This document shows positions 3,823 to 34,471 of a stretch of 44,666 nt of DNA, piece after piece. The translations under genes and the position numbers were made by a program. The stretch comes from an uncultured Lachnospiraceae bacterium (lineage in GTDB: Bacteria > Bacillota > Clostridia > Lachnospirales > Lachnospiraceae), in contig CALWLN010000213.1 in assembly GCA_944381535.1 (NCBI GenBank), forward strand, positions 1 through 44,666, in the 5' to 3' direction. The notes beneath the pieces were generated by a model that searched no databases, had not been told where the DNA came from, and worked only from the letters and a program-made list of their open reading frames with translations. Numbering within the stretch: the stretch's first letter is position 1; every line of letters starts with the position of its first letter.

Positions 3823-4406
3823 TTTAAAATATCCTCGGATCGAAAGCCCTTCCGAAGCAGGAACTGGTAGAGTCTCTGCTTCTCTTTCACATCCGCAGTC
3901 TCAGGATCATAATGCTTCTTCTCAATCCAATGCTGAATCTTCCGGGTTTCCTCTTCTCCGTCGTATTCCTCCGCCAGGGCCTTATCGATATCCTCCCGGG
4001 ACACGCCCTTTCGGGCCAGCTCCAGGGCCAGCAGACGCCGACTCTTGCTCTGACCTTGCCCTTGCGCATAATTGCAGGCGTAACGAAAATCATCCACATA
4101 GTGGAATCCCTTCACATAATCAATGGTGTCCTCGATCACGTCCTCCGGGTATAAATCCTGGCGAAGCTTCTCCCGCAGCTGAACTTCCGTGCGGTCCATC
4201 CGCTCCAGCAGGTACATAGCCCGCTTCCTGGCCCGTGGAATCAGAATCTCACTACAGATCCGTTCCCACTCTCCCTCGTCTAGTTCCGCTCCCGGCTTCA
4301 GCTCAAACTGCCTTACTTCCTTCCGATATACCGTAAATGAACTACCGTTTTCAAGATGTACGGTAATCTTGCCCTTGCCGGTCTCTTCTATTCTCTCTAT
4401 CTGCAT
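3810..4406 (-). CDS. recX: Regulatory protein RecX
   Basis: RecX binds inside the RecA filament groove and limits or modulates RecA activity. The product is 198 residues from the ATG at 4406. A GTG 9 bases upstream is also in frame, but GGGGTG spaced 6 nt before the ATG favours the ATG. It is all-helical with three RecX-type repeats, visible around AMYLLERMDRTEVQLREKL, FHYVDDFRYACNYAQGQ and the C-terminal YQFLLRKGFRSEDILKAL. An N-terminal beta-rich extension (ITVHLENGSSFTVYRKEVRQF) is typical of clostridial RecX. It lies directly downstream of recA, 162 bp away, and is probably co-transcribed with it under SOS control. Confidence 0.92.
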   Translation of the reverse strand: MQIERIEETGKGKITVHLENGSSFTVYRKEVRQFELKPGAELDEGEWERICSEILIPRARKRAMYLLERMDRTEVQLREKLRQDLYPEDVIEDTIDYVKGFHYVDDFRYACNYAQGQGQSKSRRLLALELARKGVSREDIDKALAEEYDGEEETRKIQHWIEKKHYDPETADVKEKQRLYQFLLRKGFRSEDILKALS

Positions 4407-17638: not shown

Positions 17639-17929
17639 CTATGACTGTGAGTTTGCCTTTGGCGAAACTGTCAGTTTCAACCCAAGTGACTGCATTAACT
17701 TAAGCAATGTATCCAGGTTTGGTATTGTTTTAAAAGATTCAATTCTCGCCACAGAAGACTGCGGCATACCGCACATGGCCGCCAGCTCTCGCTGACTGAT
17801 TCCCAGGGCATTTCTCTGTTCAATCATAGCCCCTACAATGGAGGCAATATTCTCAATCTCCTCCATGTCTCTTTTACTTTCAGGTGAAACGGCTTTTACA
17901 TGTTGCTTATAATCATTCCAGGTCTTCAT
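17639..17929 (-). CDS. XRE-family antitoxin (HigA-like)
   Basis: A 96-residue protein with a helix-turn-helix in its second half (GISQRELAAMCGMPQSSVAR, followed by IESFKTIPNLDTLLKLMQSL). The ATG at 17929 is one base after the toxin stop and has GAGGAGG upstream inside the toxin's last codons, so translation is coupled. The N-terminal half (KTWNDYKQHVKAVSPESKRD) probably wraps the toxin. It should bind the toxin and repress the shared promoter, for which a perfect palindrome at 18244-18263 is the likely operator. Toxin-first order is as in higBA. Confidence 0.85.
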   Translation of the reverse strand: MKTWNDYKQHVKAVSPESKRDMEEIENIASIVGAMIEQRNALGISQRELAAMCGMPQSSVARIESFKTIPNLDTLLKLMQSLGLKLTVSPKANSQS

Positions 17930-17930
17930 G

Positions 17931-18230
17931 CTATTTCCTCCTCTTTTGGGCCAAATAATCATCACGTTCTGCCTTTGCCCTTGCAATTTCACGACGAGGC
18001 GTCTTCTGCGATTTCTTTCGAAAATGGTGAAGTAAAACAAAAACATCATCCTCGTAATAGAAATAAAATACTCGATTATTCCCCGGACGTAGCTCCCAGA
18101 TATCTTCCTCAATATGCTTTATGATATTATCCGGCAGTTGTGTCCCTTTATCCTGCAAGAGCTGAATATAAAGACTTATTTGCTTATATTGAATATGCGC
18201 ATCCTTTACATAATATACCCCATTCCCCAT
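17931..18230 (-). CDS. RelE/HigB-type toxin (phage Gp49-like family)
   Basis: Predicted ribosome-dependent mRNA interferase, 99 residues from the ATG at 18230. An open frame continues eight codons upstream to a TTG, but that lies inside the promoter. Recognisable family features are IWELRPGNNRVFYFYYEDD, FVLLHHFRKKSQKTPRREI and a basic C-terminal helix. Relatives usually start with about 20 more residues carrying a FYxDxxG segment; here the N-terminus is short and starts MGNGVYYVKDAHIQYK. The predicted transcription start is only a few bases before the ATG, so the message is nearly leaderless. Activity of this short form is uncertain. Confidence 0.8.
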   Translation of the reverse strand: MGNGVYYVKDAHIQYKQISLYIQLLQDKGTQLPDNIIKHIEEDIWELRPGNNRVFYFYYEDDVFVLLHHFRKKSQKTPRREIARAKAERDDYLAQKRRK

Positions 18231-18242
18231 TTGTACGTTTTT

Positions 18243-18271
18243 ATGATAGCACAAATGCTATCAGTTGTCAA
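18243..18271 (-). promoter_or_regulatory. Promoter and palindromic operator of the toxin-antitoxin pair
   Basis: Minus-strand TTGACA (18266-18271), 17-bp spacer, TATCAT (18243-18248). A perfect palindrome, TGATAGCA and its complement around a CAAA centre (18244-18263), covers the -10 and most of the spacer. This is the position expected for autorepression by the antitoxin. Confidence 0.85.
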
Positions 18272-19407: not shown

Positions 19408-19456
19408 GTGACATCGGTATTTTTTTATAGTATAATGTATTACATAGTATGTAATA
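19408..19456 (+). promoter_or_regulatory. Promoter and palindrome in front of the IS genes
   Basis: GTGACA (19408-19413), 17-bp spacer, TATAAT (19431-19436). The expected start point falls in a perfect palindrome TATTACATA, G, TATGTAATA (19438-19456), which could bind a repressor or fold at the 5' end of the mRNA. Confidence 0.65.
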
Positions 19457-19473
19457 TAAAGGAGGTATGCATA

Positions 19474-20112
19474 TTGGCTGCAAATTACCCCGACTGGGTT
19501 ATGGCTCACAAGAAGAAAGGCACTTATATCAATAAAGTGGGCGACAAATATTATCTTTATGCTGCTCATTCCGAATATGTCAAGGATACTGGCAGAGTAA
19601 AACGTGTCTGTGACGGTTATCTTGGCAGAATTACCAAAGAAGAAGGTTTTATTCCTGCTAATAGAAAATTGAAAAATGATCCGGAGGTGTTTGAGATTGG
19701 TCTTTCACTTACAATCCTTTCCTCTTCTCCGCTGATTCATCAAGGACTTCGGCGTTCCTTTCCCAAATATGGAGATGTTATATATTCCTGTGCTGTCCTG
19801 TCCTATATCTATGGGGAATATTCAGAGGAATTGTTCAAGCATTCCTATCTGTTTCTTGCTTTTCCCGATCTTTCTTTTCCGGAACGGTTCACAAAAGCAC
19901 AGGTCACGGGTATTGAATGCGGAACAAGAATGCTGGAAGAATGCATGGCAAAACGTTTTGGGGAAGAACTCACACGAATCCGCTCCCTCTTTCCTGATGT
20001 CCGGCTTCTGAAAATCAATGACAGCTATTATCTTTCGGGAATTTCCGAACCGGCTGCCCTACTCTCAAAAAAATATAAGATTGAATGGAGAAATCCACTA
20101 TGGCAAAAATAA
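19474..20112 (+). CDS. IS-associated protein of unknown function
   Basis: A 212-residue product from TTG at 19474, which has AAAGGAGG 8 nt upstream; the ATG between them is out of frame. The N-terminal 60 residues (MAHKKKGTYINKVGDKYYLY, then AAHSEYV, RVKRVCDGYLGRITKEEGFI) resemble the N-terminal module seen in several IS1634/IS4-type transposases, as I remember them. The rest is helical with no catalytic motif I can name. It ends 13 bases inside the transposase gene, so the two are translationally coupled. It may help DNA binding or regulate transposition; I cannot say which. Confidence 0.6.
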   Translation: MAANYPDWVMAHKKKGTYINKVGDKYYLYAAHSEYVKDTGRVKRVCDGYLGRITKEEGFIPANRKLKNDPEVFEIGLSLTILSSSPLIHQGLRRSFPKYGDVIYSCAVLSYIYGEYSEELFKHSYLFLAFPDLSFPERFTKAQVTGIECGTRMLEECMAKRFGEELTRIRSLFPDVRLLKINDSYYLSGISEPAALLSKKYKIEWRNPLWQK

Positions 20113-21389
20113 ATTCATTTATCGCAACGTATACGGACACTTTACAGGAACTTGACATTCCGGTTGGAGAAGGACTTCCACCAAAAACTGTCATCCGCAG
20201 ATTCTTAAGGATATTTCAAAAAATTGAAGATTCGAGAATACAGGCAATGACGGATTATCCGCTGGAAGAGATTCTCCTTATCGCTTTTCTTTCAGTACTT
20301 GGTAATGCTTCAACCTGGGCGGACATGGAGCGTTTTGGAAAAGCAAAACAACGCTGGCTCAGAAAATTTCTCCTTCTGAAAAACGGAATTCCATCCCATG
20401 ATACCTTCCGGCGTGTTTTTTCACTGATTGACACGAAGCAGCTTCAGAAAGCTACAGTTACTTTCCTGATGGATAACCTTTATGCCATAAAAAAAGCATT
20501 GGGTATCAAGGATGACGGATACCGTCAGATTTGTGTGGATGGGAAAGAGCAGAAAGGCACGGGGCGGAATTATAATTCGGATAGTAAAATCCGAAATCTC
20601 CAGACCCTCCACATATATGATGCTTCCAATGAACTATGTCTTTATTCAGAGGCAATCAGTGAAAAGACGAATGAGATACCGGTTGCTCAGAAAGCTTTGG
20701 AAAGCATGGACCTAAAGGAATGTATTGTCACTTTTGATGCCCTTCATACACAGAAAGATACCATTGCCATAATACGGGAACGGAAGGGAGAGTATGTGGG
20801 CGGCTTAAAAGGAAACCAGTCAGGGCTTTTGGAAGAGGCTGTCTCATATTTTAACGAAAAAGAACTTCTTGATTATTATAAAGAAAAAGGCGACTTTTAT
20901 GAAACCATGGAAAAAGCACATGGGAAGCTCGAACGCCGTACCTACTATCTTGTAAAACCGACCAAACGGAAGATCATAAAGGAATGGAGTGGTTTAAAAA
21001 CCTTTATCTGCTGTATTAAAGCCATAAAAGACAAGTATGGAAACGCAAAGGAAGAAATCCGTTATTACCTTTCCAGTATGGATGATGTTGAACTGTGTGC
21101 CCAGGCGATCCGCGGGCACTGGAGTGTCGAAAACAAGCTTCATTGGCATCTTGATTACAGTTTGAACAAAGATGATAATACAACAATGGATAAAACAGCA
21201 TTCAATAACTACAGCCTGATTAATAAGATAGTTTTATCTCTATGCAAACTGGCAAAGCCGGTCACAGGCAGTCCAAGCATACGGACTCTCCGCAAGGAGT
21301 TTGGATGGGGATTTGAAGAAAGCCTCTCCCTCCTTCTTTCCAGTTTTGATGAAGAACAGATTCTGAATGCCTTGGAAGCAGTGAAATAA
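20100..21389 (+). CDS. ISAs1-family transposase
   Basis: A DDE-type transposase of 429 residues from the ATG at 20100 (GGAG 9 nt upstream). The N-terminal DDE-associated domain holds YPLEEILLIAFLSVLGNAST, WADMERFGKAKQRWLRKFL and GIPSHDTFRRVFSLID. Catalytic candidates are the Asp in ICVDGKEQKG, the Asp in VTFDALHTQK and the Glu in RGHWSVENKLHWHLD, in the correct order. The C-terminus (NYSLINKIVLSLCKL) is also typical. It is uninterrupted, so the element may still be mobile or arrived recently. Confidence 0.92.
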   Translation: MAKINSFIATYTDTLQELDIPVGEGLPPKTVIRRFLRIFQKIEDSRIQAMTDYPLEEILLIAFLSVLGNASTWADMERFGKAKQRWLRKFLLLKNGIPSHDTFRRVFSLIDTKQLQKATVTFLMDNLYAIKKALGIKDDGYRQICVDGKEQKGTGRNYNSDSKIRNLQTLHIYDASNELCLYSEAISEKTNEIPVAQKALESMDLKECIVTFDALHTQKDTIAIIRERKGEYVGGLKGNQSGLLEEAVSYFNEKELLDYYKEKGDFYETMEKAHGKLERRTYYLVKPTKRKIIKEWSGLKTFICCIKAIKDKYGNAKEEIRYYLSSMDDVELCAQAIRGHWSVENKLHWHLDYSLNKDDNTTMDKTAFNNYSLINKIVLSLCKLAKPVTGSPSIRTLRKEFGWGFEESLSLLLSSFDEEQILNALEAVK

Positions 21390-21420
21390 TCTGAATCAGC
21401 GCAAAACCAACAAATCAGCC

Positions 21421-21455
21421 CATTTAAGCGTCATCAGAAAAATGACGCTTAAATG
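21421..21455. repeat. 14-bp perfect stem-loop after the transposase gene
   Basis: CATTTAAGCGTCAT, 7-base loop, and its exact complement, 31 bases after the transposase stop. There is no T tail on the plus strand, so it may be a structural end of the element or a terminator against outside transcription. The remaining bases up to 21607 hold nothing I recognise. Confidence 0.6.
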
Positions 21456-21607
21456 GTATGTCAAAATATATGCCCGTTCTGTTCCTGCGTACAATGCAGA
21501 CAATAAATGAGCTTTCATTATGGAAGAATTTTCCTCTATATCGATGCTCCATGCATATCTAAAAAAATTTATGCGTTTGTCCTATTGGGGGATTCGGGGT
21601 TGTTTTA

Positions 21608-22549
21608 TCAGGGGATCAGCACAATCCGGTAGCCTTCTTTATTTCGTGCCATGGCAAATCCTTTTTCCCACTCTTCCAACGGGAAAGTATGGGAAATCAG
21701 GCTTTTTACGTTCACCCTTCCCTTTTGCACCAGAGCAATCACCCGCAGCCATGTCTCTCTGTCATAAGCAATACTGCCTATGATTCTCTGATTCTGATAA
21801 ACCATACTTCCCAGATCTGCGCTGGCTCTTCTGCCGAAAATTCCCACCTGGGTCAGTTGACCGTTGTAGATAAGAACTTTCAATCCCGTATCCAATGCCG
21901 CCTGGCTCCCAGAGCATTCCAGTACCGTATCCATTCCTCTGCCCTGCGTAAATTCTCTGCAGGCAGCAAGGATGTCTTCTTTCTGGACATTCAGAATTTT
22001 GTCTGCGCCCAGTTTTTTTGCCATAAGAAGCCTTTCCGTATCGGAATCTGTTCCGGATACTAGGACGAAAGCTCCCTGCAGTTTTGCGGCCTGCAGTGCC
22101 AGAAGGCCGATCACACCCGGGCCTTCGATCAAAACATGGTCTCCGGGCAGGATACGAGACTTGTTAAATACACTGTTTGCGGCAGCTGCCAGGGGCTCCA
22201 GCAGCGCACCTTCCTTAAAAGAAATCTCATTCGGCAGATGGAATACCCAGTCTTCTTCATCCTTAACCACATACTTGGCAAATCCGCCGTCCATGCAGGC
22301 TGTTACACGGTCTCCGGTCTTAAATCTTGTTACACCCTTTCCCGTTTCCACAACAATGCCGCAAAATTCGTGCCCCAAAGGCGTATTCACTTTCCAGGGA
22401 TATGCCCCTTCTATAATATGAAGATCCGTTACACAGATCGCACAGGCCTTGATTTCTATTTTTACATCCCGGTACCCGCAGACCGGCTCTTCTATTTCCC
22501 GGTAATCCACCTGCCTCGGCAGCTCCCCATATTTTACAATGGCTTTCAC
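21608..22549 (-). CDS. Medium-chain dehydrogenase lacking the structural zinc lobe
   Basis: Zinc-type alcohol/polyol dehydrogenase of 313 residues starting at a GTG directly after the aminotransferase stop (AGGAGG 8 nt upstream). Catalytic zinc ligands are C39 (ACAICVTDLH), H60 and E61 (PLGHEFCG). The Rossmann motif is GPGVIGLLALQAAKLQGA. Members normally carry a four-cysteine structural zinc loop after GDRVT; here GDRVTAC passes at once to MDGGFAKYV, so about 25-30 residues are absent without a frameshift. Sorbitol, threonine or inosose-type substrates are all possible. As the last gene of the glycan operon it probably oxidises or reduces a sugar intermediate. Confidence 0.85.
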   Translation of the reverse strand: MKAIVKYGELPRQVDYREIEEPVCGYRDVKIEIKACAICVTDLHIIEGAYPWKVNTPLGHEFCGIVVETGKGVTRFKTGDRVTACMDGGFAKYVVKDEEDWVFHLPNEISFKEGALLEPLAAAANSVFNKSRILPGDHVLIEGPGVIGLLALQAAKLQGAFVLVSGTDSDTERLLMAKKLGADKILNVQKEDILAACREFTQGRGMDTVLECSGSQAALDTGLKVLIYNGQLTQVGIFGRRASADLGSMVYQNQRIIGSIAYDRETWLRVIALVQKGRVNVKSLISHTFPLEEWEKGFAMARNKEGYRIVLIP

Positions 22550-23875
22550 CTATACCACCTCCTGAAAGCATCTTTCCAGTATATCCATGGCTTCCTTTGC
22601 CTGATCCATGGTGATGATCAAAGGCGGTTTTAACTTAATCACATTGTGGGCAGATTGGAAGAACAGTCCCTGACTGACACACCACAAAAACAGCTTTTTC
22701 ATCGTCTCTTCCGTAAATGGTTTCTTGGTTATCGGATCCTTTACCAGTTCCACTCCGATTGCCAGGCCCGGTCCTCTTACATCCCCTATGAACGAAAACC
22801 GCTTTTGCATTTCAAGCAGCCGTTCTGTCATATATGCTCCCACCTCAGCGCCATTTTCCAGCAAATGATCCCGTTCCATAATCTCCAGGGTTTTCATGAC
22901 CGCCGCATAGGTCAAATGGTTATTCTGGAATGTCTGCATGTCTTCCATCAGGTTTTCAAAGCCTGTGAGACGGTCATGTATCAGGATTCCGCCCACAGGC
23001 ATTCCGCTTCCCATTCCTTTGGCAAAAGCGATGATATCCGGTTCCACGTCATAATACTGCGCAGCAAAGAACTTACCGGTTCTTCCAAAGGTCTGGATCT
23101 CATCAAAAATCAGGAGGATTCCCATTTCATCACAGATCTGACGTACCCTTTGAAGATATTCCTTAGGCAGCGGAATCTGGCCGCCTCCGGATTGAATGGG
23201 TTCTATAATAACTCCCGCAACCGGACCGGATACCCCGTGCTGCAGCGTTTCCTTCAAAGACTGTGCGCACTCTAAGCTGCATTTGCCCGGTTCCTTTGAA
23301 AAAGGACAACGGTAACAATATGCCCGCTGCGTTTTCACAAAATGATGCTCTGCATGATTTACAAACCGGTAAAAACTCTCATTGGCAATCTCTTCCTCCG
23401 CTCCTCTTGCTGACAGAAAAGTTGCATCCGCGGTGCCGAAGGTGGTGCCATGATATCCGCCGTATAATGTCACAAAGTTTCGGGATCCCGGTACGTTTTT
23501 CAGCGCAATTTTCATGGCGGATTCGATTGCCATACCACCTCCCAGCGTAAAGGATATTCTGTTCAGGTGAGGAGGCGCCACATTTGCCAGCTTGTGATAC
23601 AGGCTGAGACGAAGATCCGTCTGATGAAGCGGCGCTACCATAGGCATATTCAGCGCTTGTTCATAAATCGCCTCTGCAACTTCCCGATTACCAAATCCCA
23701 GAAGACAGACAAACTGCTCTGACGTAAAGTCCATATATTTTTTCCCATCCAGATCTTCCAGATAAATCCCCTCCCCTCCCTTTAAGGAAAGGCCTCCTGG
23801 AAGTTTAAAACAAGGCATCAGGTGCCTGCTGTATTCCACTCTCTGCTCAGGGGTCAATTCATATTGATTTTTCAT
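22550..23875 (-). CDS. Class III aminotransferase, GabT-like, with a four-cysteine motif
   Basis: PLP-dependent aminotransferase of 441 residues. The PLP-binding parts are LGGGMAIESAMKIAL, YGGYHGTTFG, FDEIQTFGRTG (D258) and the Schiff-base lysine K286 in IIAFAKGMGSGMPVGG. An inserted CYRC and C-x3-C motif (C187, C190, C199, C203) sits before the large-domain strand and could hold zinc or an iron-sulfur cluster, as in some GABA-transaminase relatives. It is next to an SDR, an MDR and two glycosidases, so its substrate may be a keto-sugar or amino sugar and not an amino acid. It has 12- and 0-base gaps to its neighbours. Confidence 0.88.
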   Translation of the reverse strand: MKNQYELTPEQRVEYSRHLMPCFKLPGGLSLKGGEGIYLEDLDGKKYMDFTSEQFVCLLGFGNREVAEAIYEQALNMPMVAPLHQTDLRLSLYHKLANVAPPHLNRISFTLGGGMAIESAMKIALKNVPGSRNFVTLYGGYHGTTFGTADATFLSARGAEEEIANESFYRFVNHAEHHFVKTQRAYCYRCPFSKEPGKCSLECAQSLKETLQHGVSGPVAGVIIEPIQSGGGQIPLPKEYLQRVRQICDEMGILLIFDEIQTFGRTGKFFAAQYYDVEPDIIAFAKGMGSGMPVGGILIHDRLTGFENLMEDMQTFQNNHLTYAAVMKTLEIMERDHLLENGAEVGAYMTERLLEMQKRFSFIGDVRGPGLAIGVELVKDPITKKPFTEETMKKLFLWCVSQGLFFQSAHNVIKLKPPLIITMDQAKEAMDILERCFQEVV

Positions 23876-23887
23876 TCTGTCACTCCT

Positions 23888-24922
23888 TCACACATTTGCA
23901 TTGACATGATTTTTAAGCTTCTCCATCTCTTCCTGCCACAACTTTACTACTTTGTCTTCAAATACCGGCTCCTGAGCCCCTTCAAATCCTCCGATGGATT
24001 CCTGGTAAGAAATGAATTCACGGATAGCATCTGCCAGAGAATACTCCCATTCAAAATCCGGAAACTGTCTGTGAAATTTATCTACGGAAAAATACAGGTG
24101 AAATCTGGCAAGCTCACCCAATACGCTCTCCTTTACTTCCTGTCTGTCCAAAGAGAATAAAAAGTCCGTGGGAATATGTACAATCTTTACAGGTTTACCC
24201 AGCGCTTCCCCGAATGCCTGAAGGTACTCATCATAGGTAACTGCCCGATTATGTGCGCAATTATAGATCTGACCGATGGTGCTATCCTCTTCACAGATTC
24301 TTGCGATCATCCGTCCTGTATTATAAGCTGCACCCGCATCGATAAGCGTTGTTCCGTCGCCGGGGGAATATACCGGCATTCCCTGCCGGATTCTGGCAAC
24401 CAGCCAGGTCCCTCTATCCCGGCCAAATGCACTCATACAGAAAGTTTTCCCAAGAGAATATCCCGGCCGGATAATCGTATATCCAATCGACGTACCTTCC
24501 AGTTCCCTCCGGTACAATTCTTCAATTGCCTTTTTATCCTCTGCATATTTTCCATTGGGAGCTCTCATGGGATCATCTTCACCCATGGGAAGTCTGGACA
24601 ACGGATATCCGTACACATCCGCCGTACTGATAAATAAAAATCTCCTGCAGGGTACCTCTCTTAAAGCACAAACCACGGTATCAGCCTGACATAATTCAAA
24701 ACAGGTGCTGTCAAGAACAATATCCGGCCTGAAATCCAGGAATGCGTCAACCAGCACTTCTTTACAATCGCGATTTCCATAATAGAAGCGGATTTTTCCT
24801 TCATAGCCAAGCAGGCCGCCGTGACTTCTCTTAATAACCGCAACGGGAATTTCTTTTTTCAGTAAATATGCAATTGCTGAGTCCGAGATATTACCCGGTC
24901 CTCCAAGAAACATCACTCTCAT
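23888..24922 (-). CDS. NAD-dependent epimerase/dehydratase (extended SDR)
   Basis: A 344-residue SDR. The start is ATG at 24922 (GGAG 7 nt upstream); an ATG two codons earlier overlaps the previous stop but is too near the ribosome site. The glycine motif is FLGGPGNISDSAIAYLL. The active site has ISTADVYGYPLS and the YxxxK of GKYAEDKKAIEEL, then IIRPGYSLG. NAD-SDR proteins of this type act on nucleotide sugars or free sugars. Position in the operon points to oxidation or epimerisation of the imported sugar. The exact reaction cannot be read from the sequence. Confidence 0.85.
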   Translation of the reverse strand: MRVMFLGGPGNISDSAIAYLLKKEIPVAVIKRSHGGLLGYEGKIRFYYGNRDCKEVLVDAFLDFRPDIVLDSTCFELCQADTVVCALREVPCRRFLFISTADVYGYPLSRLPMGEDDPMRAPNGKYAEDKKAIEELYRRELEGTSIGYTIIRPGYSLGKTFCMSAFGRDRGTWLVARIRQGMPVYSPGDGTTLIDAGAAYNTGRMIARICEEDSTIGQIYNCAHNRAVTYDEYLQAFGEALGKPVKIVHIPTDFLFSLDRQEVKESVLGELARFHLYFSVDKFHRQFPDFEWEYSLADAIREFISYQESIGGFEGAQEPVFEDKVVKLWQEEMEKLKNHVNANV

Positions 24923-24924
24923 TT

Positions 24925-26145
24925 TCATTCTCCGTTCTTTTTGATATGCAGAAGCCAGTCATCCGCTCCTCCCGCATTGTGTCCCGGAATCTGCAGTCTT
25001 CCTCCATCTGCCCATACTGCCGCAAAACGCCTGCCGCTCACCGGATCAATCCATTCGGCATCTTTCGCATATTTCATGCCGGGAACCGTAAAGTAGCGCC
25101 GATCCGATATATAGGCAGCCAGCTCTTTCCCATCTTCCGTACAGGCTGTCGGGATATAATGATCGGATGCGTTCGGCATCAATGATCGAATCGTCCGGAT
25201 CCGCTTTCCCTGAAAATCCGGCTTCATGCGCCACCAGGGAATCTGTTCAAAGATTTCCCGCAATGTCATCATATGCTGAGCTGCCGCACTCCATAATGCG
25301 TCCGGCCAGAACATATTTGCCATCCAGATATCCTTATTCCCGTAAGTCTGTCCGCTGCCGCCCAGAAGGATGGAGGTATAAGCAAATTTTCGCACAACAT
25401 CCGCTCCGATTCCATCATTTCCATCATAATGGGTTTCTCCCAGCAATGCCGGCTTATCCGGATATTTTTCCTTTGCCTCCAGCATTTGCCGGATACAGCA
25501 ATCATAATCATACGTATAATTCATGCAGAAATCATACCATTTTTCTTCTCCGAAAAATGGATAACTTGGACCGATGCCTGCGTGAAAGGTATTCAAAACA
25601 TGCGGCGCATTTTCCTGATAGACAGGCACACATTTCCTGATCTCTCCATGGAGCGGGATGGCATCGTCATCTCCCCCGTGAATAAACGCTATGACATTGG
25701 ATAATCTTCCGTATCTTGCCGCGATCTGGCGGGCATATTCCAGGAGAGGTTCTCCATGATACAGCAATTGCCAGTCATCCTCCCAGGTGCTCAGCCACAT
25801 AGGTGCAATGGCAACCGCAAGCCCCAGGCTTTGCGCATATGCCAGAACCTGATCTGCATGTGCAAAATAGGCTTCATTTAACGCCTCTATTTTTCCGGGT
25901 TCCAAAAAAGGATTTTCCCCGTAACAGTTCGTCTGGTAGATATGATGGGGGAGCATATGTACCTGAATTACCGTGAATCCCTTCCGGGCCCGATCTTCTA
26001 AATAAATCTGTGCTTCTTCAAGCGTCATCATCCAGAAAATTCTCCAGCAGGTGTCTGCCTGCCACAGGAAAGGCTTTCCATCCTGATCCTCGAAATATCC
26101 TCCCTGCCTGTTAATCTTTATGGGAAATCGAAATGTTCCTGCCAT
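24925..26145 (-). CDS. DUF4038 / GH140-like glycoside hydrolase
   Basis: A 406-residue (beta/alpha)8 hydrolase of the DUF4038 (apiosidase-like) group. The N-terminal signature reads GGYFEDQDGKPFLWQADTCW, then RKGFTVIQVHMLPHHIYQ. Candidate catalytic residues are the acidic cluster GGDDD (157-161) and E237 in LLGETHYDGND. A small C-terminal beta domain follows (AAYISDRRYFTVPGMKYAKD) as in PF12904. There is no signal peptide, so it acts on imported oligosaccharides. GH140 founders cleave apiose from pectin RG-II; the specificity of this branch is unknown. Its stop overlaps the region of the SDR start. Confidence 0.8.
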   Translation of the reverse strand: MAGTFRFPIKINRQGGYFEDQDGKPFLWQADTCWRIFWMMTLEEAQIYLEDRARKGFTVIQVHMLPHHIYQTNCYGENPFLEPGKIEALNEAYFAHADQVLAYAQSLGLAVAIAPMWLSTWEDDWQLLYHGEPLLEYARQIAARYGRLSNVIAFIHGGDDDAIPLHGEIRKCVPVYQENAPHVLNTFHAGIGPSYPFFGEEKWYDFCMNYTYDYDCCIRQMLEAKEKYPDKPALLGETHYDGNDGIGADVVRKFAYTSILLGGSGQTYGNKDIWMANMFWPDALWSAAAQHMMTLREIFEQIPWWRMKPDFQGKRIRTIRSLMPNASDHYIPTACTEDGKELAAYISDRRYFTVPGMKYAKDAEWIDPVSGRRFAAVWADGGRLQIPGHNAGGADDWLLHIKKNGE

Positions 26146-26161
26146 ATTCCCTCCCTATGTC

Positions 26162-28111
26162 CTATCTTTTATATTCCATTTTCCGAATTTCTTTTACCAG
26201 AATCGTACAATGCTTTTCCGGATCCGTCTCCGCTGCTACCTCCAGAAGCTCCTTTTCCGGACAGGGATTGGAAAACATATGCCGGTAAAAAGTCTCTTCT
26301 CCCACCTGCAGTGGCAACGTTGCATAAGTTGTTTCCATCAAATGGTCATCCACCTGATACATGTTTTGTTCTTCCATCCGTTCCCGCTTCCAGGAAGCCA
26401 GCCGGTAGCCGATATCATCTCCATATCTTACGGGAATGCTGCTTTGACTTCCGTCTGCGTAGAGAAACTTCACCTCACCGATCTTATATTTGGAGTCCTC
26501 CGGAAACACACCGTCTACAAACCACCGGAAATCCGGATGATAATCCGTGTGATACAAAAGTTCCACATAATCCGGGTGGCGCGATCCCTCGTTAATCCTG
26601 CATTTTTTCCGATCCGGGTTTTTTCTGTCATAAAGACTCTCCATAACCAATGCTCTGATTTTCTTAAAATCATCCTCTTTATAATCCGGATTCCAGAACA
26701 TTTCATATGCGTATGCAATATTGAAAAAGATTCCGTTTCTCTGCAGAATCCTTTCGTCCAACGTACTCCAGTTGGAAATCATGGCGCCGCAGATCTCCTT
26801 TTTGCGATCCTGCCAGTCCGGGAACAGGTAACTGTCAAAATTCCCATAACGCACGGAAAACCTCTCCTCCAGCAGCTCGTCCTCCAGATCCCGGGAAAGT
26901 CCCCAGTTCCAGTGCAGGATTTCTACTTCCTTGTTCACGCGATAAATTGCCGGCCAGGTTGCCGGCATGATCCCGATAAATTTGCCGTCCCTGTGAAATG
27001 CAGGAGAATACATTCTGATTTCGGCTCCTCCAAAAGGCCCCGCACCCGGAACCTGCGCATTTTTCAGCAGTTTATCGCCCCAGATCACGGTTTTAATATT
27101 TTTCTTTTTCAGATATGCTGCAATTTTATTTACATCATCTGCAAAAATATCCGCTCCGGATCTTAACCGACACTTTTCACAGACAGCAATGGAATAATAT
27201 TCATCATGCCCGATATTCATCCGCTGCGGTTCAAATACCTGCACGACCTCATCTATTACATCAAATAAAATTTCATACGATCTGGGATTGGAAGGGCAAT
27301 AGGTATCCGGATAGGGATCCTCCGGGCGTTCCGCAATCTCAGGATTGCCCATCATCAAATAATCGCAGTGTCCCAAAGAAGGTACTTCCGGAATCACTTC
27401 CAGTTCTCTTTCCTTGCAATAGGATACCAGCTGTTTCATTTCCTCCTGAGTCAGGAATTCTCCGCCGCCGTTTTCCATATGAATGGCATTTTTATACCAG
27501 GGAAAGGTCTGATCCTGTATCACTGTGGTTTTCCCGGAATACTCGGACATTTCTTTACAATAAGAAACCCATCCCTGATTAATTTCCGGGTGCCTCTTAT
27601 ACTCCATGGCACCTCCGACTTCGATCATTACGGTATTGAATTGATAAAAAACCAAAAGATCTATAAATTTTTTAAAAAAGGAAATGTTCTTTCGGGAAGG
27701 CGTAAAGATCTTCATCCCACGCTCTTTGCACACCGGTGCAAAATAAGCACAAACCTGGCGCAAATATCCTCCCTGCGTCAAATGCAGGAGGCTGGCTGCT
27801 CCATAAAGCAGTCCTCTTTTTGTCGTTGCATAAACGGTTACTTCTTCCCCTTGCGCATATACAAGGCAGCTCTCTTCATTCCAAGAGTGCAGCAGTTCGG
27901 TAAGCTTTTTTTCCTCTTCCAGCTTCTTAGGAGGAATACTTTGCAGGAAACAAATTCTTTTATAATGATCGGGGGAGCCTTCCGTGCCCTTTCCTTCTTT
28001 TTTCAATGCAAAAGCTGCAAGCAGATCCTCCATCACCGAAGATGCACCTGTAATTTGGGTTTTTTCCGTAATATAACGTCCTTTTCCAAATTCGATGATT
28101 CGTTCCTTCAT
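26162..28111 (-). CDS. GH20-like beta-N-acetylhexosaminidase, cytoplasmic
   Basis: A 649-residue protein with an N-terminal GH20b-type alpha/beta domain (about 1-120, EVTVYATTKRGLLYGAASLL). The TIM barrel begins at ERGMKIFTPSRKNISFFKKF. The catalytic Asp-Glu pair is D303-E304 in RMNIGHDEYYS; later barrel strands include VIWGDKLL and EILHWNWGLS. About 150 residues follow the barrel as an extra C-terminal domain of beta type. It lacks a signal peptide, so it hydrolyses imported material. GH20 enzymes use the substrate's own N-acetyl group for catalysis, which points to a HexNAc-containing glycan or an N-acyl amino sugar. Confidence 0.82.
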   Translation of the reverse strand: MKERIIEFGKGRYITEKTQITGASSVMEDLLAAFALKKEGKGTEGSPDHYKRICFLQSIPPKKLEEEKKLTELLHSWNEESCLVYAQGEEVTVYATTKRGLLYGAASLLHLTQGGYLRQVCAYFAPVCKERGMKIFTPSRKNISFFKKFIDLLVFYQFNTVMIEVGGAMEYKRHPEINQGWVSYCKEMSEYSGKTTVIQDQTFPWYKNAIHMENGGGEFLTQEEMKQLVSYCKERELEVIPEVPSLGHCDYLMMGNPEIAERPEDPYPDTYCPSNPRSYEILFDVIDEVVQVFEPQRMNIGHDEYYSIAVCEKCRLRSGADIFADDVNKIAAYLKKKNIKTVIWGDKLLKNAQVPGAGPFGGAEIRMYSPAFHRDGKFIGIMPATWPAIYRVNKEVEILHWNWGLSRDLEDELLEERFSVRYGNFDSYLFPDWQDRKKEICGAMISNWSTLDERILQRNGIFFNIAYAYEMFWNPDYKEDDFKKIRALVMESLYDRKNPDRKKCRINEGSRHPDYVELLYHTDYHPDFRWFVDGVFPEDSKYKIGEVKFLYADGSQSSIPVRYGDDIGYRLASWKRERMEEQNMYQVDDHLMETTYATLPLQVGEETFYRHMFSNPCPEKELLEVAAETDPEKHCTILVKEIRKMEYKR

Positions 28112-28158
28112 TTCTTCCTCCTGAAAACCGGTACTTCTATGCTTTTTATTTTTGTCTT

Positions 28159-29697
28159 TTACTTCGCAGCTTCAAATCTATCTTTGGCCTGTTTCTCCAT
28201 TTCTGCATTTACAGCATCAATTCCGGCCTCTTTTAATTTCTGTTTGAATTCCTTTAACGTTGCTTCGGGATCTTCTGTAAATCCAAGGTACATAACCGGC
28301 AGGTATTCGGATAATACATTAGAAGTTGCCGCTACTTCCGTTGTCACATTATCTGTTATAAAGGACATGCCATCCAGAGGATGATGCACCGCCTGATCGT
28401 AGAAATAGCTCAGTAAAGTATCCGTATAACCATCGAAGGACTCTGTCGGCAGACTGGGTGTGTTGGAGAAACACCAGAAGGAATATCCGCCGTAAGCATC
28501 GGGATTGACTGCTTCCACTTCTAAGAACTTATTTCCTTCATATTCCACTTCACCGGCAATTTTATTATGCTCACCCGGAATACCGTAGTTGATCAAGAAG
28601 TTCAATTCCGGATCATATCCCAGCAAATCTGCTGCCATCATGGCTCTGTCAATATTTTTGCTCTTGGCATTAAAAGCAACGCCCTGGGAATAACCGGTGG
28701 AACCAAGCTTCTTTCCTTCCAGAAGATTTACATATTCAATTTTCCAATCCGGATGATTTACTTTGGCTGACTGCCATGCTGCATTGGCTTCTGTAATATT
28801 ACAGATCTTCACAACACTCTTTCCTGCTTCAAAACGCTCTGCATTGGCGGAAGTCAAATCACTCTTTGACAGAAATCCCTTCTGATTCCATCTCACCATC
28901 CGCTTAAGATGCTCTTCATAACCGGGCAGCTCATAGAACGGTGTCAGTTCCACCTTTTCCGGATCGGTAAAATCATACGTATAGACGCCGGTATGCTCGC
29001 CTGCCAGATACCAATGCTCATCCGGATAAACAACAATCGCTCTCATATACATTTCAGCATTGTCTCTGGAAATATCAAGGGGAATTATGCCTTTTTCATT
29101 TTCCAGAACTTTATCCATATACGCTTCCAGATCATCTACCGTTTTTACTTCACTCATACCATATTTTTCTCTCAAATCACCACGAATCATGAATCCATAG
29201 TGATTTGCAAAATAATTATACTGCGGAATCAGATAGCAGTTTCCGTTGATGGCAGAGCTGCTCCAGGCAGATTCCGGCAGATTAGCCACCGTCAACGGGC
29301 AGTTTTTCTTAATCATTTCCATGGTTAGAGGATAAAATCCTCCTTTGGATGCAGTCTCAGAATAAAGCGCCCAGTCTGCCGTATAAATCATGTCAAATTC
29401 TTCCCCGGAAGTAAATAAAAGGGGATATCTCTGATCCCAGTCTCCCCAGGAAAGGTACACCGGTTCAATGGTTGCATTGATCTTCTCGGTTAGTATCCGA
29501 TTGATGTCATCGAATACCTTCTCATTATCCGCTGCCGGCTCTCCGATAAAATAAAACTTCAGGGTTACGGGATCCAAGCCGGACGCCCCGCCGTCACCGC
29601 CTCCCGTGCCGCCCGGCTTCTTACCATGACCGCATCCTGTCATTCCCAGAACCATCACCAACACAAGAATCACTGCCATTACTCTTTTTTTCAACAT
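28159..29697 (-). CDS. Sugar ABC transporter substrate-binding lipoprotein (LplA-like)
   Basis: Extracellular solute-binding lipoprotein of 512 residues from the ATG at 29697 (GGAGG 7 nt upstream). A lipoprotein signal, VLVMVLGMTGC, with the lipobox cysteine at about residue 22, precedes a Gly/Lys-rich linker. The body is a type II periplasmic-binding fold (TLKFYFIGEPAADNEKVFDD, YQNRYPLLFTSGEEFDMIYT-like strands). The C-terminal 130 residues resemble DUF3502. This lineage is typical of complex-oligosaccharide importers that use LplB/YtcP permeases, such as the two genes upstream. No ATPase gene is present; a shared MsmX-type ATPase elsewhere is expected. Confidence 0.92.
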   Translation of the reverse strand: MLKKRVMAVILVLVMVLGMTGCGHGKKPGGTGGGDGGASGLDPVTLKFYFIGEPAADNEKVFDDINRILTEKINATIEPVYLSWGDWDQRYPLLFTSGEEFDMIYTADWALYSETASKGGFYPLTMEMIKKNCPLTVANLPESAWSSSAINGNCYLIPQYNYFANHYGFMIRGDLREKYGMSEVKTVDDLEAYMDKVLENEKGIIPLDISRDNAEMYMRAIVVYPDEHWYLAGEHTGVYTYDFTDPEKVELTPFYELPGYEEHLKRMVRWNQKGFLSKSDLTSANAERFEAGKSVVKICNITEANAAWQSAKVNHPDWKIEYVNLLEGKKLGSTGYSQGVAFNAKSKNIDRAMMAADLLGYDPELNFLINYGIPGEHNKIAGEVEYEGNKFLEVEAVNPDAYGGYSFWCFSNTPSLPTESFDGYTDTLLSYFYDQAVHHPLDGMSFITDNVTTEVAATSNVLSEYLPVMYLGFTEDPEATLKEFKQKLKEAGIDAVNAEMEKQAKDRFEAAK

Positions 29698-29753
29698 TTT
29701 CATTCCTCCATATTTTTTATAATGTTGTAGGTCGTGCGCCCTTTCAGGTACAC

Positions 29754-30647
29754 TTAGCCTTTAACGGCTCCGACCATGATCCCGCTGACAAAGTACTTTT
29801 GCACAAAAGGATACAGAATCAAAATCGGGCCGATTGTTACCAATGTCATTGCCATCTTAAAGGATTCCTCCGGCGGCGTTACCACCGTAAGCTGAGGCAC
29901 CTTGGATACCAGTTCCCGCAGCATGGTAATCTGAGACAGCATCTTATACAGATAATATTGTAACGGAATCAGACTCTTTTTATCCACATAAAGCATGGCA
30001 TTAAACCAGTCATTCCAGTATTCCAGTGCCATAAACAATCCCACGGTCGCTAAAATCGGCTTGGAAAGAGGCATTACGATCTTTCGAAAAATCTGAAATT
30101 CTCCGGCGCCGTCAATCTCCGCCGATTCGATCAGAGAATCCGGTATGGATGCACTGATCGTGCTTCGCATTATAATGATATAAAAGACGTTGATCAAAAG
30201 CGGCAGGATCAATGCAAGCAAATTGTTTTTAATTCCCAGATAGCGAATCATCAAAATATACTTTGGGACAATGCCTCCTTCAAATATAGTTGTAAAGTAG
30301 AAGAAGAAAGCAACTGCATTTCTGTGCGGAAAGCACTTGCGTCCCAGCACATATGCCGCCATGGCAGTGATCAAAAGACCGGTCAAGGTACCTGCCGCCG
30401 TGACAAAAATCGTTACACCATATGCATTCAAAATATCACCGGGCGCTGCCAGGATCGTCCGAAAAGCAGCTGTGGAAAACTGATGCGGGAGCAGCGAATA
30501 ACCATATTCCAGTATCGACTGTTCTGAGGAAAATGCTCCGGAGATCACGAAACCAAAAGGCAAAATGCAGCATAAGGTAAATATGGTCAGGAAGCTGTAT
30601 GCAATTATGGAAAACACAACTCTGTCTTTGCTTAATTTATAATGCAT
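29754..30647 (-). CDS. Sugar ABC transporter permease, YtcP/LplC type
   Basis: Inner-membrane permease of 297 residues from the ATG at 30647 (AAGGAGG 6 nt upstream). Six membrane segments can be drawn, beginning at VVFSIIAYSFLTIFTLCCIL. The EAA loop coupling it to the ATPase is ESAEIDGAGEFQIFRKIVMP. The end AVKG (SGIMVGAVKG) is typical of YtcP/LplC. It pairs with the LplB-type permease 10 bases upstream. Confidence 0.93.
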   Translation of the reverse strand: MHYKLSKDRVVFSIIAYSFLTIFTLCCILPFGFVISGAFSSEQSILEYGYSLLPHQFSTAAFRTILAAPGDILNAYGVTIFVTAAGTLTGLLITAMAAYVLGRKCFPHRNAVAFFFYFTTIFEGGIVPKYILMIRYLGIKNNLLALILPLLINVFYIIIMRSTISASIPDSLIESAEIDGAGEFQIFRKIVMPLSKPILATVGLFMALEYWNDWFNAMLYVDKKSLIPLQYYLYKMLSQITMLRELVSKVPQLTVVTPPEESFKMAMTLVTIGPILILYPFVQKYFVSGIMVGAVKG

Positions 30648-30657
30648 AATCTCCTCC

Positions 30658-31569
30658 TTAGAACAGCGCATAATCGCTTTGAAAATGCTTTACAACAGCA
30701 TTCACGCTTATGAGAATAACAAAATTGATTACGGACTGCATCAGTCCTGCCGCTGAGGACATCCCTACATCCTGAAGCTGCAGCAGGGATCTTACCACGA
30801 ACGTATCAATCACATCTGTCGTTTCATACAATAAAGGATTGTTTCCGGTTACCTGGTAGAACATCTGGAAATCTCCCTTAAAGATCCTTCCCACATCCAA
30901 AAGTACCAGCGTAATGATCTGCGGAACAATCAAGGGCAGTGTAATGGAAAAGATCTGCCGGAACTTGCCGGCACCTTCAATCGCCGCTGCTTCATAGATT
31001 TCCTTATCAATTCCTGTAATGGCAGCCAGATAAATTACCGAGCCATATCCCACCCATTTCCAGGCATTTACCAACACCAGTATATATTTCCAGGCACCTA
31101 TATTGGAATACATGTCCACCGGGGCCTTCCCCAGCGCCTGCAGGAAATTATTTACCGAACCATATTCGTAATTAAACAGGTTATAAATAAAGCCTCCCAC
31201 AATAACCCAGGAAATAAAATACGGCAGCAAAATTGCCGACTGGGAAATCTTACGAAAACGCTTCGCCGCGATTTCCGTCAAGAGTACCGCCGTAATAACC
31301 TGCAACGTCTGGTTCACTGCGATAAACACAATATTATAGGCAAACGTATTAAAAGCTACTCTGAAAATTTTGCCTCCGTTAAACAGGAACTTAAAATTCT
31401 TAAATCCGTTCCAGGGACTTCCATAAATGCCATCAATATAATTATAATTCTTAAACGCCAGCACGGTTCCGGTCATGGGTATGTATGCAAAAATAATGAA
31501 ATACAGCACCGCGGGCAACAGCATCAGAAACAGTACCCTGTTGCGCTTTTTATATCCTTTCCCTCTCAT
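30658..31569 (-). CDS. Sugar ABC transporter permease, LplB type
   Basis: Permease of 303 residues, first gene of the glycan operon. Membrane helices begin at VLFLMLLPAVLYFIIFAYIP. The EAA loop is EAAAIEGAGKFRQIFSITLP. The NFKFLFNGGKIFRVAFNTFA region and the C-terminal SDYALF are LplB-like. Its ATG has GGAGAGG upstream, and a sigma-A promoter (31594-31622) drives it. It partners the LplC-type permease and the lipoprotein. The whole operon runs about 10 kb to 21608. Confidence 0.93.
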   Translation of the reverse strand: MRGKGYKKRNRVLFLMLLPAVLYFIIFAYIPMTGTVLAFKNYNYIDGIYGSPWNGFKNFKFLFNGGKIFRVAFNTFAYNIVFIAVNQTLQVITAVLLTEIAAKRFRKISQSAILLPYFISWVIVGGFIYNLFNYEYGSVNNFLQALGKAPVDMYSNIGAWKYILVLVNAWKWVGYGSVIYLAAITGIDKEIYEAAAIEGAGKFRQIFSITLPLIVPQIITLVLLDVGRIFKGDFQMFYQVTGNNPLLYETTDVIDTFVVRSLLQLQDVGMSSAAGLMQSVINFVILISVNAVVKHFQSDYALF

Positions 31570-31593: not shown

Positions 31594-31622
31594 ATTTTAG
31601 CAACGCCTTTGCACCTTTTCAA
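31594..31622 (-). promoter_or_regulatory. Promoter of the glycan-import operon
   Basis: Minus-strand TTGAAA (31617-31622), 17-bp spacer, TAAAAT (31594-31599), 25 bp before the LplB start. Confidence 0.7.
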
Positions 31623-32650: not shown

Positions 32651-34471
32651 ATGCATCTTCTGGAAAAGAAACTTACCCGAATTGTAGACAGTATTTCCCT
32701 GAAAGCAAAAATACAGCTGGTATTCTTTTTATTTCTGATCATCCCGCTGCTTCTATTTACTTTCATTTCCTATCGCAGTACCAACCGCCTGGTTCTGAAT
32801 CAGACGCTTTCTTCCATGGGACAGTCCTATGACGAATGCGTCTCTGTCTTAAACCGTACCTTTTTAGGCATGTCCAAAACCATGGACAACCTGCTTTCCA
32901 CTCCCGATATTTACCAATTTACCGAAACGGACAGCGAAAATCAGATTTTTGTCCAGCAGGCCTTTTATCAGCGCATAAATCAGCTTTTCGGATATATGAA
33001 AAAGCTCTCGGACATTGACCGTATTTTACTTTATGTGAAAAACAATTCCCTCCATACGGAGAACGAACAGGCGCTTTTATCTTTGGAGCATATTGAGCAG
33101 TCCGACTGGTATCAGTCCCTTTTATCTCAGGGGAAAAGCCGCTTCTGGCTGGCTCCGGGTTATATTCAGGAAGAGGATGGCAGTCCCTGTGCCTATTTTT
33201 CCTATGTGAGCATTCTATATTCCCCCGAAAATCTGACCAAACCCATGGGGCTGTTACAGATTGACATTTCTGCGGATAAAATCCGTCAAATTTTAAACGA
33301 AATGGCTTTTTCTGAAGAAGTCTTTTTATATCTGACAGATGATGACACTTCTTTTTTTGATAAAGAGGGAAACTGCGGGGATTTCTCCTACGCTTCCCTT
33401 ACCGACTCCGCTTCTCTGTCCGACAGACACCAATGGGAATTTTCAAACTATAAGGGGAAACAATCTATCCTGCGCCAGGAAAACCTGTTTCCTCCTCAAT
33501 GGTATTTAACTGCTGTACTTCCTCAGAACACGGTATTCCGTGTACAAAAACAGCTTTACCGGGATCTTTTGCTGGAACTGGCTGTTATTGGCCTGGTTTC
33601 TTACATTTTGGCCTGCCTTACCGCAAATTCCAGTTTAAAGCGTCTTTTTCTTCTGAATACGGAAATCAAAAAAATGGAAGCCGGGGATTTTCAGATTAAA
33701 CTGCCTCACTCCGGAAACGATGAAATCGGAGAAATCATGGACAGTTTTTCTTCCATGAGCAAGCGCATGGAAAGTATGATCGATGAACGTTACGAGATGG
33801 GTCAGGCCGTAAAAAATGCAGAGCTTTGTGCTCTGCAGGCTCAGATTAATCCACATTTTCTTTATAATTCTCTGGATCTTATCAACTGCATCGCTATCCA
33901 GAAAAACGCACCCCAGATCACCGAAATGGTCACTGCACTGGTAAAATTCTATAAGCTCACTTTAAATAACGGGCATGAGATCATTACCCTTTCTCAGGAA
34001 CTTCTTCATGTGAAAACCTATATCCAGATTCAGAATATCCGCTTTGTGGAAAAGATTCGCTTTTCCCATAATGAGCCGGACTGGTTGGATTTTTATACCA
34101 TTCCCAAGATTCTTCTACAGCCGTTGGTAGAAAATGCCATCATCCACGGCATCCTGGAAAGCCAGACCCAGACCGGCTCTGTCTCTATTCTCTTCTCCAG
34201 GGAAGTTTCTTCTGAGGGGGAAGAAGAGATTCTCATCCGAATCAAGGATGACGGTGTAGGCATCCCGCCCCACGTTCTAAGCAACATCTTAAAAGAAGAC
34301 TGCCCGCATCGGGGTTCCGGATATGGAGTCAAAAACGTTAATGAACGAATCCAGTTATTCTACGGAGAACGCTACGGTCTAAGTTATGAAAGCAGCCAGC
34401 CGGGGGGCACGCAGGTAACTATCCGCATTCCTGCGGTTCGTTCCCTTCTTTCCGGCTCCCATCATCATTGA
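32651..34471 (+). CDS. YesM-type sensor histidine kinase
   Basis: Membrane kinase of 606 residues. The first membrane helix is at about 22-42, followed by an extracellular dCache-like sensor (about 45-295). A second helix lies at about 300-322 and a HAMP segment at about 322-375 (NTEIKKMEAGDFQIKLPHSG). The His_kinase domain has H402 in LQAQINPHFLYNSLDLINCI. The ATPase domain has PLVENAIIHGI (N box) and DDGVGIP. The sensor faces outside, as expected for detecting a sugar or a loaded binding protein. Its last 53 bases overlap the convergent SdpI-like gene. Confidence 0.93.
   Translation: MHLLEKKLTRIVDSISLKAKIQLVFFLFLIIPLLLFTFISYRSTNRLVLNQTLSSMGQSYDECVSVLNRTFLGMSKTMDNLLSTPDIYQFTETDSENQIFVQQAFYQRINQLFGYMKKLSDIDRILLYVKNNSLHTENEQALLSLEHIEQSDWYQSLLSQGKSRFWLAPGYIQEEDGSPCAYFSYVSILYSPENLTKPMGLLQIDISADKIRQILNEMAFSEEVFLYLTDDDTSFFDKEGNCGDFSYASLTDSASLSDRHQWEFSNYKGKQSILRQENLFPPQWYLTAVLPQNTVFRVQKQLYRDLLLELAVIGLVSYILACLTANSSLKRLFLLNTEIKKMEAGDFQIKLPHSGNDEIGEIMDSFSSMSKRMESMIDERYEMGQAVKNAELCALQAQINPHFLYNSLDLINCIAIQKNAPQITEMVTALVKFYKLTLNNGHEIITLSQELLHVKTYIQIQNIRFVEKIRFSHNEPDWLDFYTIPKILLQPLVENAIIHGILESQTQTGSVSILFSREVSSEGEEEILIRIKDDGVGIPPHVLSNILKEDCPHRGSGYGVKNVNERIQLFYGERYGLSYESSQPGGTQVTIRIPAVRSLLSGSHHH

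Follow-up and report, generated by a model that had tools for sequence, protein, structure and literature searches.

The window analysed here, the whole 44,666-nt stretch of contig CALWLN010000213.1 from an uncultured Lachnospiraceae bacterium, carries on its minus strand a putative glycan-use operon of eight tightly packed genes (21608-31569), which are separated by gaps of 0-50 bases or overlap by 4 and 14 bases. In the order of transcription, these encode two permeases, a binding lipoprotein, a GH20-like glycosidase, a DUF4038 glycosidase, an extended short-chain dehydrogenase/reductase (SDR), a class III aminotransferase (AT) and a zinc-type medium-chain dehydrogenase/reductase (MDR). Comparisons of gene content, order and conservation couple the last three genes, hereafter the SDR-AT-MDR trio, to sugar import and breakdown in two types of operon. 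All eight genes were confirmed by Pfam (Table 1), with the position and content given in an earlier reading of this DNA (the original prediction). The host of the operon is a spore-forming anaerobe.

Gene content of the operon and a collinear relative

Judging from their sequences, the binding lipoprotein and the two UgpA/UgpE-type permeases appear to form a CUT1-type carbohydrate ATP-binding cassette (ABC) importer, for which no ATPase gene is found in the operon. Inspection of the translations by eye shows a lipoprotein-type signal at the start of the binding protein and a signal peptide on neither glycosidase. Pfam identified no kinase, phosphatase or deacetylase among the eight operon genes, in line with the original prediction where the kinase is concerned, and no exporter-like gene was found among them.

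In the GH20-like protein, an Asp-Glu pair aligns with GH20 chains in the PDB and is retained in the relative L031 described below, and the His-Asp-Glu motif is intact. The DUF4038 protein resembles GH140 apiosidases (PF13204; PDB 8t9w, 3kzs/5msy and 4qfu) both in its family match and in two acidic motifs, GGD and GE, that align with the "Apiosidase" 8t9w and that may be the catalytic acids of GH140; however, PF13204 is a broad family, and Pfam pointed to an apiose pathway for none of the eight genes of the operon. The SDR has a GGxGxIS motif and residues S101, Y128 and K132 that are invariant in 30/30 aligned sequences, and its AlphaFold model (predicted local distance difference test, pLDDT, 89.5) was matched by Foldseek with template modelling (TM) scores of 0.65-0.78 to 50 listed PDB chains, mostly of GalE/RmlB kinds; these 50 are general sugar-nucleotide enzymes at 12-21% identity and point to no substrate. 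The AT residue K286, presumably the lysine that binds pyridoxal 5'-phosphate (PLP), is invariant in 5/5 sequences. An AlphaFold model of the AT made from five sequences was poor (pLDDT 61.6) and was set aside. In the MDR, whose nearest solved relatives are threonine and polyol dehydrogenases, C39, H60, E61 and E118 are invariant in 3/3 sequences and are assumed, by analogy with polyol dehydrogenases, to form the catalytic zinc site; no stretch of the protein aligns to the structural-zinc lobe. The residues that follow the second strand suggest that both dehydrogenases may prefer NADP(H), in which case one step could pay for the other.

A pattern-based scan of genome contigs for the SDR, which detects close relatives only, returned a single relative, locus L031, in a Eubacteriales metagenome-assembled genome (JAUNGT010000001.1). 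The window also holds a divergent two-component system, omitted from the original prediction, that starts 215 bases from the operon and is likewise found in L031, where all ten genes lie in the same order and share 58-86% protein identity with those of the window. Across the eight operon genes, identity between the two loci is 0.68-0.86 at first, 0.74-0.93 at second and 0.41-0.50 at third codon positions. Such a concentration of changes at third positions is as expected under purifying selection if all eight proteins are used. Furthermore, each copy of the operon seems to have adapted to its own genome, since its G+C content is 46% in the window and 58% in L031. No isomerase, FGGY kinase or class II aldolase gene lies between the ten L031 genes. 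We note that the L031 histidine kinase is incomplete, since the L031 stretch ends within it, and that the L031 regulator (L031:1565-3124, minus strand) has 519 residues; the window regulator matches both of its ends and lacks the middle ~260 residues, as if internally deleted.

Table 1. Features of the operon, its regulators and its flanking signals in the window; percentages are protein identities to L031
Feature	Coordinates	Strand	Evidence
Sugar ABC permease 1 (UgpA type)	30658..31569	-	PF00528 BPD_transp_1; UgpA/GlcT models below cut-off; 86%
Sugar ABC permease 2 (UgpE type)	29754..30671	-	PF00528 BPD_transp_1; GlcU/UgpE models below cut-off; 80%
Sugar-binding lipoprotein	28159..29703	-	SBP_bac_1 + DUF3502; 81% over 479 residues
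Divergent GH20-like glycosidase	26162..28111	-	PF00728 Glyco_hydro_20, E 2.9e-16; PDB GH20 matches; 60%
DUF4038/GH140-like glycosidase	24925..26145	-	PF13204 Apiosidase, E 1.1e-59; PDB 8t9w, E 3.3e-25; 73%
Extended SDR (GalE/RmlB fold)	23888..24928	-	Epimerase PF01370, E 1.5e-13; AlphaFold and Foldseek PDB matches
Class III PLP aminotransferase-type enzyme	22550..23875	-	Aminotran_3 PF00202, E 4.6e-83
Zinc-type MDR, threonine/polyol dehydrogenase kind	21608..22549	-	ADH_N + ADH_zinc_N; PF00107, PF08240 and PF16912 all match
Response regulator (receiver + AraC-type helix-turn-helix), 270 residues	31785..32597	+	Pfam; 59% and 60% in two segments that match either end of the L031 protein
Sensor histidine kinase (HAMP, His_kinase, HATPase_c; weak dCache match)	32651..34471	+	Pfam; 58% over 518 residues
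Promoter-like site upstream of operon	31594..31622	-	10/12 matches; TG ahead of the second hexamer
Terminator-like hairpin, 16 pairs, after MDR gene	21420..21456	-	Terminator-like sites 21 vs 9.5 in shuffles

The trio in a second operon type and in wider genome samples

The trio recurs in the same order in a second type of operon, found in genome G088 (loci L032 and L033) and, as a near copy, in genome G1164 (locus L046). There, with a two-component system upstream, the genes run in the order isomerase (with a Fucose_iso_C domain), DUF5060+DUF4038 glycosidase, FGGY kinase, class II aldolase, SDR, AT, MDR, binding protein and two permeases. Between the window and G088, the MDR, AT and SDR share 62%, 61% and 52% identity, whereas the values are 26% over 216 residues for the binding protein, 26-27% for the permeases and 26-28% for the regulators; the same protein comparison gave no match between the glycosidases, of which DUF4038 is the only kind common to both operon types. 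The trio is therefore the best-kept core of these loci. It is collinear in four of them, namely the window, L031, G088 and G1164 (the last two near copies), and its recurrence in the same order in otherwise different sugar operons argues for a rare module tied to sugar breakdown. The original prediction had joined the three metabolic enzymes to the glycan genes, and none of these relatives omits them: L031 and G088/G1164 keep the trio, and G088/G1164 change the rest.

We then considered genome samples of the family, class and phylum, which overlap. In the family sample, the window SDR protein matched 50 of 299 genomes at E<=1e-10, with only the window's own genome and G088 below 1e-100 and 20-28% identity in the remaining ones. 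An AT profile recovered the same two genomes (2/397 at E<=1e-110), which are thus the sole strong matches for both proteins in the family samples. At the level of the class, an SDR profile matched four of 391 genomes at E<=1e-40 (the window's own, G645 with 41% identity, and G664 and G474 weakly) and the AT profile two of 391 at 1e-100 (the window's own and G305, with 45% identity). In the phylum sample, the SDR profile matched the window's own genome only (1/398). Within genera, the SDR is present in one of six genomes of the window's genus and in two of six of that of G088, and the GH20 protein was found in one of 100 family genomes at 1e-30, again the window's own. The regions around the weak SDR matches in G664 and G474 were opened and hold no AT or MDR of the trio kind.

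On plasmids, relatives of the SDR were found in 19 records, with 23.6-27.0% identity in the ten listed. Four of these regions were opened, one of them unannotated; no AT or glycosidase is annotated near the SDR in the other three, whereas an aldo/keto reductase is found in two of them, in one case together with a zinc-binding dehydrogenase. Upstream of the closest plasmid AT (Sinorhizobium BG8, 37%), genes for a GMC dehydrogenase, an FGGY kinase and an aldolase first suggested a second sugar link. This candidate was dropped because the match ends at about query base 4080, before the AT, in the 14 other listed records (of 214 with a match), because no further close AT was found on plasmids, and because the ABC importer that follows the AT was taken as a separate unit. 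No sugar operon surrounds the AT in the Deinococcus and Natronosalvus plasmid regions, where a sugar ABC ATPase gene lies at the Deinococcus edge. Two distant ATs (29%) came out of scans of IMG/VR, which returned neither an SDR nor a GH20 relative. Finally, none of the paper titles listed by a literature search describes this gene set, which, given the partial coverage of that search and the narrowness of several queries, is weak evidence of absence.

Proposed function and competing explanations

Besides glucosamine and galactosamine, other amino sugars occur in many glycans of bacteria and hosts, and to our knowledge little is known of how anaerobes remove nitrogen from them. We propose that the window holds a glycan-use operon whose trio converts an amino sugar to a neutral one that ordinary catabolism can take over, a reading to which we would assign a probability of roughly 0.5. 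In outline, the two-component system would sense an oligosaccharide, which the ABC importer would take up and which the two glycosidases, presumably cytoplasmic, would cut to single sugars; one of these would bear an amino group and would be freed by the DUF4038 enzyme. The AT would pass the amino group of this putative substrate to a 2-oxo acid, leaving a keto sugar in which the MDR would convert the keto function to a hydroxyl by reduction; preparing or correcting the sugar by oxidation or epimerisation would fall to the SDR, although the steps might run in another direction or order. The resulting neutral sugar would then pass to an isomerase, a kinase and an aldolase of an ordinary route, whose genes flank the trio in G088 and may be present in trans in the window's genome. 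The original prediction had offered two roles, the breakdown of an amino or N-acyl sugar through redox chemistry plus transamination, and the formation of an imino-sugar; the former, strengthened and narrowed to a module of three enzymes, is still the best reading, and the latter fared poorly, as set out below.

Hexosamine catabolism through NagA and NagB proceeds by way of phosphorylated hexosamine and a NagB-type deaminase. The proposed route would resemble it in being fed by a GH20-like enzyme and in removing nitrogen before the carbon is used, but nitrogen would leave here by transamination together with two dehydrogenases, with neither phosphorylated hexosamine nor a NagB-type deaminase. 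While the glycan-use operon is of a known kind, the amino-removing module is possibly new. More tentatively, and with odds that we would put clearly short of even, the trio could be an undescribed module that acts on a free amino sugar, for example a hexose from microbial polysaccharides with an amino group at C3 or C4 and possibly 6-deoxy. It would yield a neutral sugar without any phosphorylation, through transamination combined with keto chemistry that is balanced in redox terms, and would be swapped between different glycan operons of anaerobic Clostridia. If so, glycan breakdown would gain a step through a compact, portable set of enzymes, which would also offer a marker for that step.

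For the downstream route, G088 offers an isomerase whose sole NCBIfam match is the sulfoquinovose isomerase SftI (90 bits vs a cut-off of 700), a kinase nearest to XylB (316 vs 380) and an aldolase nearest to fructose-bisphosphate aldolase (218 vs 343). The trio in G088 thus stands beside a set of the kind seen in isomerase-FGGY kinase-class II aldolase operons. Such genes are absent from the window operon, but contig C167 of the window's genome (locus L060, 540-5507, minus strand) carries four genes in succession, three of them for an isomerase (32% identity), an FGGY kinase (28%) and a class II aldolase (36%). The isomerase is again nearest to SftI (92 bits, cut-off 700) and the kinase to XylB (283, cut-off 380); with these scores below their cut-offs, the curated substrates are not implied. 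A second, more distant set lies on contig C28 of the same genome. The route could be supplied in trans, although sets of this sort are common and are no proof by themselves. An SftI-like isomerase handles glucose altered at C6, and we speculate that the product could be 6-deoxy-glucose made from a 3- or 4-amino-6-deoxy sugar, since this would fit both an SftI-like isomerase and a fructose-type aldolase.

Several points weigh against the conversion of an amino sugar by the trio. The activities given to the three enzymes are predicted from sequence. The class III PLP family takes in racemases, lyases and amino-acid transaminases as well, and the curated models (best NCBIfam score 294, cut-off 574) do not discriminate among these for the AT. 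The SDR has the fold of sugar-nucleotide enzymes, yet no sugar-nucleotide enzyme is encoded in the operon. Moreover, if the sugar were N-acetylated, its acetyl group would have to be removed beforehand by a deacetylase, for which the operon has no gene. Because isomerase-kinase-aldolase sets lie at more than one place in the window's genome, none of them need serve the trio pathway. In addition, the linkage of the trio weakens further out. The SDR of G645 has no AT or MDR beside it on the 12 kb read, on a contig that starts 728 bases upstream of the SDR; its neighbours (locus L038, 729-6765) are a Gfo/Idh/MocA oxidoreductase, a dehydrogenase with a PGDH_C domain, an amidohydrolase and a xylose-isomerase-like TIM barrel, which still looks like sugar chemistry and would be another context for this type of SDR. 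The AT of G305, in turn, shares a contig of only 3 kb with a classical SDR, and no extended SDR or MDR was seen within this short length.

Among the alternatives, the PLP enzyme could be a lyase or epimerase that eliminates ammonia from an amino sugar or inverts one of its centres, leaving the rest to the two dehydrogenases. The third-best NCBIfam match of the AT, to the PbfA ammonia-lyase (276 bits), is in line with such a role, as are the isoleucine 2-epimerase chains that come next after 6s54 among its PDB matches and the substrate-arginine positions of class III transaminases, which by eye look altered here; however, PbfA falls well short of its cut-off (525), and higher scores go to two plain aminotransferase models (294 and 282). 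From these matches a transaminase seems most likely and a lyase possible, and we consider this alternative as a whole unlikely. The trio might also act on an amino-acid or amino-alcohol part of the glycan, as in a glycopeptide-like aglycone, with for instance a hydroxy-amino acid being oxidised and transaminated after the sugars have been cut off. This would agree with the L-threonine 3-dehydrogenases that are the best-scoring relatives of the MDR, and with the amino-acid racemases and transaminases among the class III relatives of the AT, but it is rendered rather improbable by a threonine dehydrogenase model score far under the cut-off (192 vs 380), by polyol dehydrogenases close behind threonine dehydrogenase among the PDB matches (113 vs 134 bits), by the galactitol-type phosphotransferase system operon that holds the closest plasmid relative of the MDR (36%), and by the G088 setting amid a sugar isomerase, a sugar kinase, an aldolase and a sugar-type importer. 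A chance presence in the operon of three enzymes that have nothing to do with the glycan would suit their rare and patchy distribution, also within the two genera, yet it is very hard to reconcile with the order kept in L031, where changes fall mostly at third positions, and with the reappearance of the trio in the different sugar operon of G088/G1164.

Synthesis of an amino sugar or imino-sugar from an imported sugar was weighed against the azasugar cluster of aminotransferase, phosphatase and dehydrogenase (GabT1-phosphatase-GutB1) as defined by Beal and Horenstein 2021 (PMC8382821), with phosphatases of PF00459, PF13419 or PF12710 and an aminotransferase consensus SGNXFRXXXFPNXXXXXXXLXVPXPYCXRC of 16 specified positions. 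Like that cluster, the window has a class III AT next to a zinc MDR (PF00107/PF08240/PF16912). It differs in that Pfam found none of the three phosphatase families in the operon or in the two regulatory genes, in that the window AT matches the AT signature no better than shuffled sequence does, in the extra extended SDR and in a gene context of import and glycosidic cleavage. The ATs of the window, L031, G088, G1164 and G305 match 4, 5, 6, 6 and 4 of the 16 positions, scores that were reached by 1853, 542, 38, 56 and 1776 of 2000 shuffles of each protein; in a further 500 shuffles of the window AT, the mean was 4.2 matches and the maximum 7. The G088 and G1164 scores thus lie somewhat above shuffles, but we regard this signal as weak, since one of three plasmid class III control ATs (5, 7 and 4 matches) scores 7. 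This Deinococcus control, annotated next to methylmalonate-semialdehyde dehydrogenase, also ends in PYCYRC, so that the PYCxRC end, present in the L031 AT and nearly so in the window AT, is an unspecific part of the signature. With no phosphatase, no exporter-like gene, an operon built for import and cleavage, and a trio that G088 couples to a breakdown route, synthesis appears highly improbable; we rejected it as the principal explanation, and the imino-sugar role suggested by the original prediction was not borne out.

Neighbouring genes and signals

Promoter-like sites occur on both strands of the gap between the operon and the regulators, although such sites show no overall excess over shuffles (17 vs 18.6). 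Just past the MDR gene, the region 19408-21389 (plus strand) encodes a DDE transposase (DDE_Tnp_1; PF13808 + PF01609) that faces the end of the operon, together with an overlapping upstream open reading frame (19408-20112) that has no Pfam match and may be a remnant of another element. At the place of this transposase, L031 has a CdaR-like sugar-diacid regulator after the MDR (L031:13420-14586, plus strand), followed, by eye, by a different transposase and then a peptide-type ABC importer. Beside the G088 locus, L032 (2947-9831) encodes, again by eye, signal-peptidase-like and TasA/camelysin-like exported proteins with a two-component system.

Elsewhere in the window, an unrelated-looking amidohydrolase-family gene (PF01979; 39135-40496, minus strand) belongs to another gene group beyond alaS. 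Finally, a small helix-turn-helix protein and a 107-residue partner, the latter recognised by eye, are encoded at 17639-18254 (minus strand) and resemble a toxin-antitoxin pair of the RelE/HigB type.

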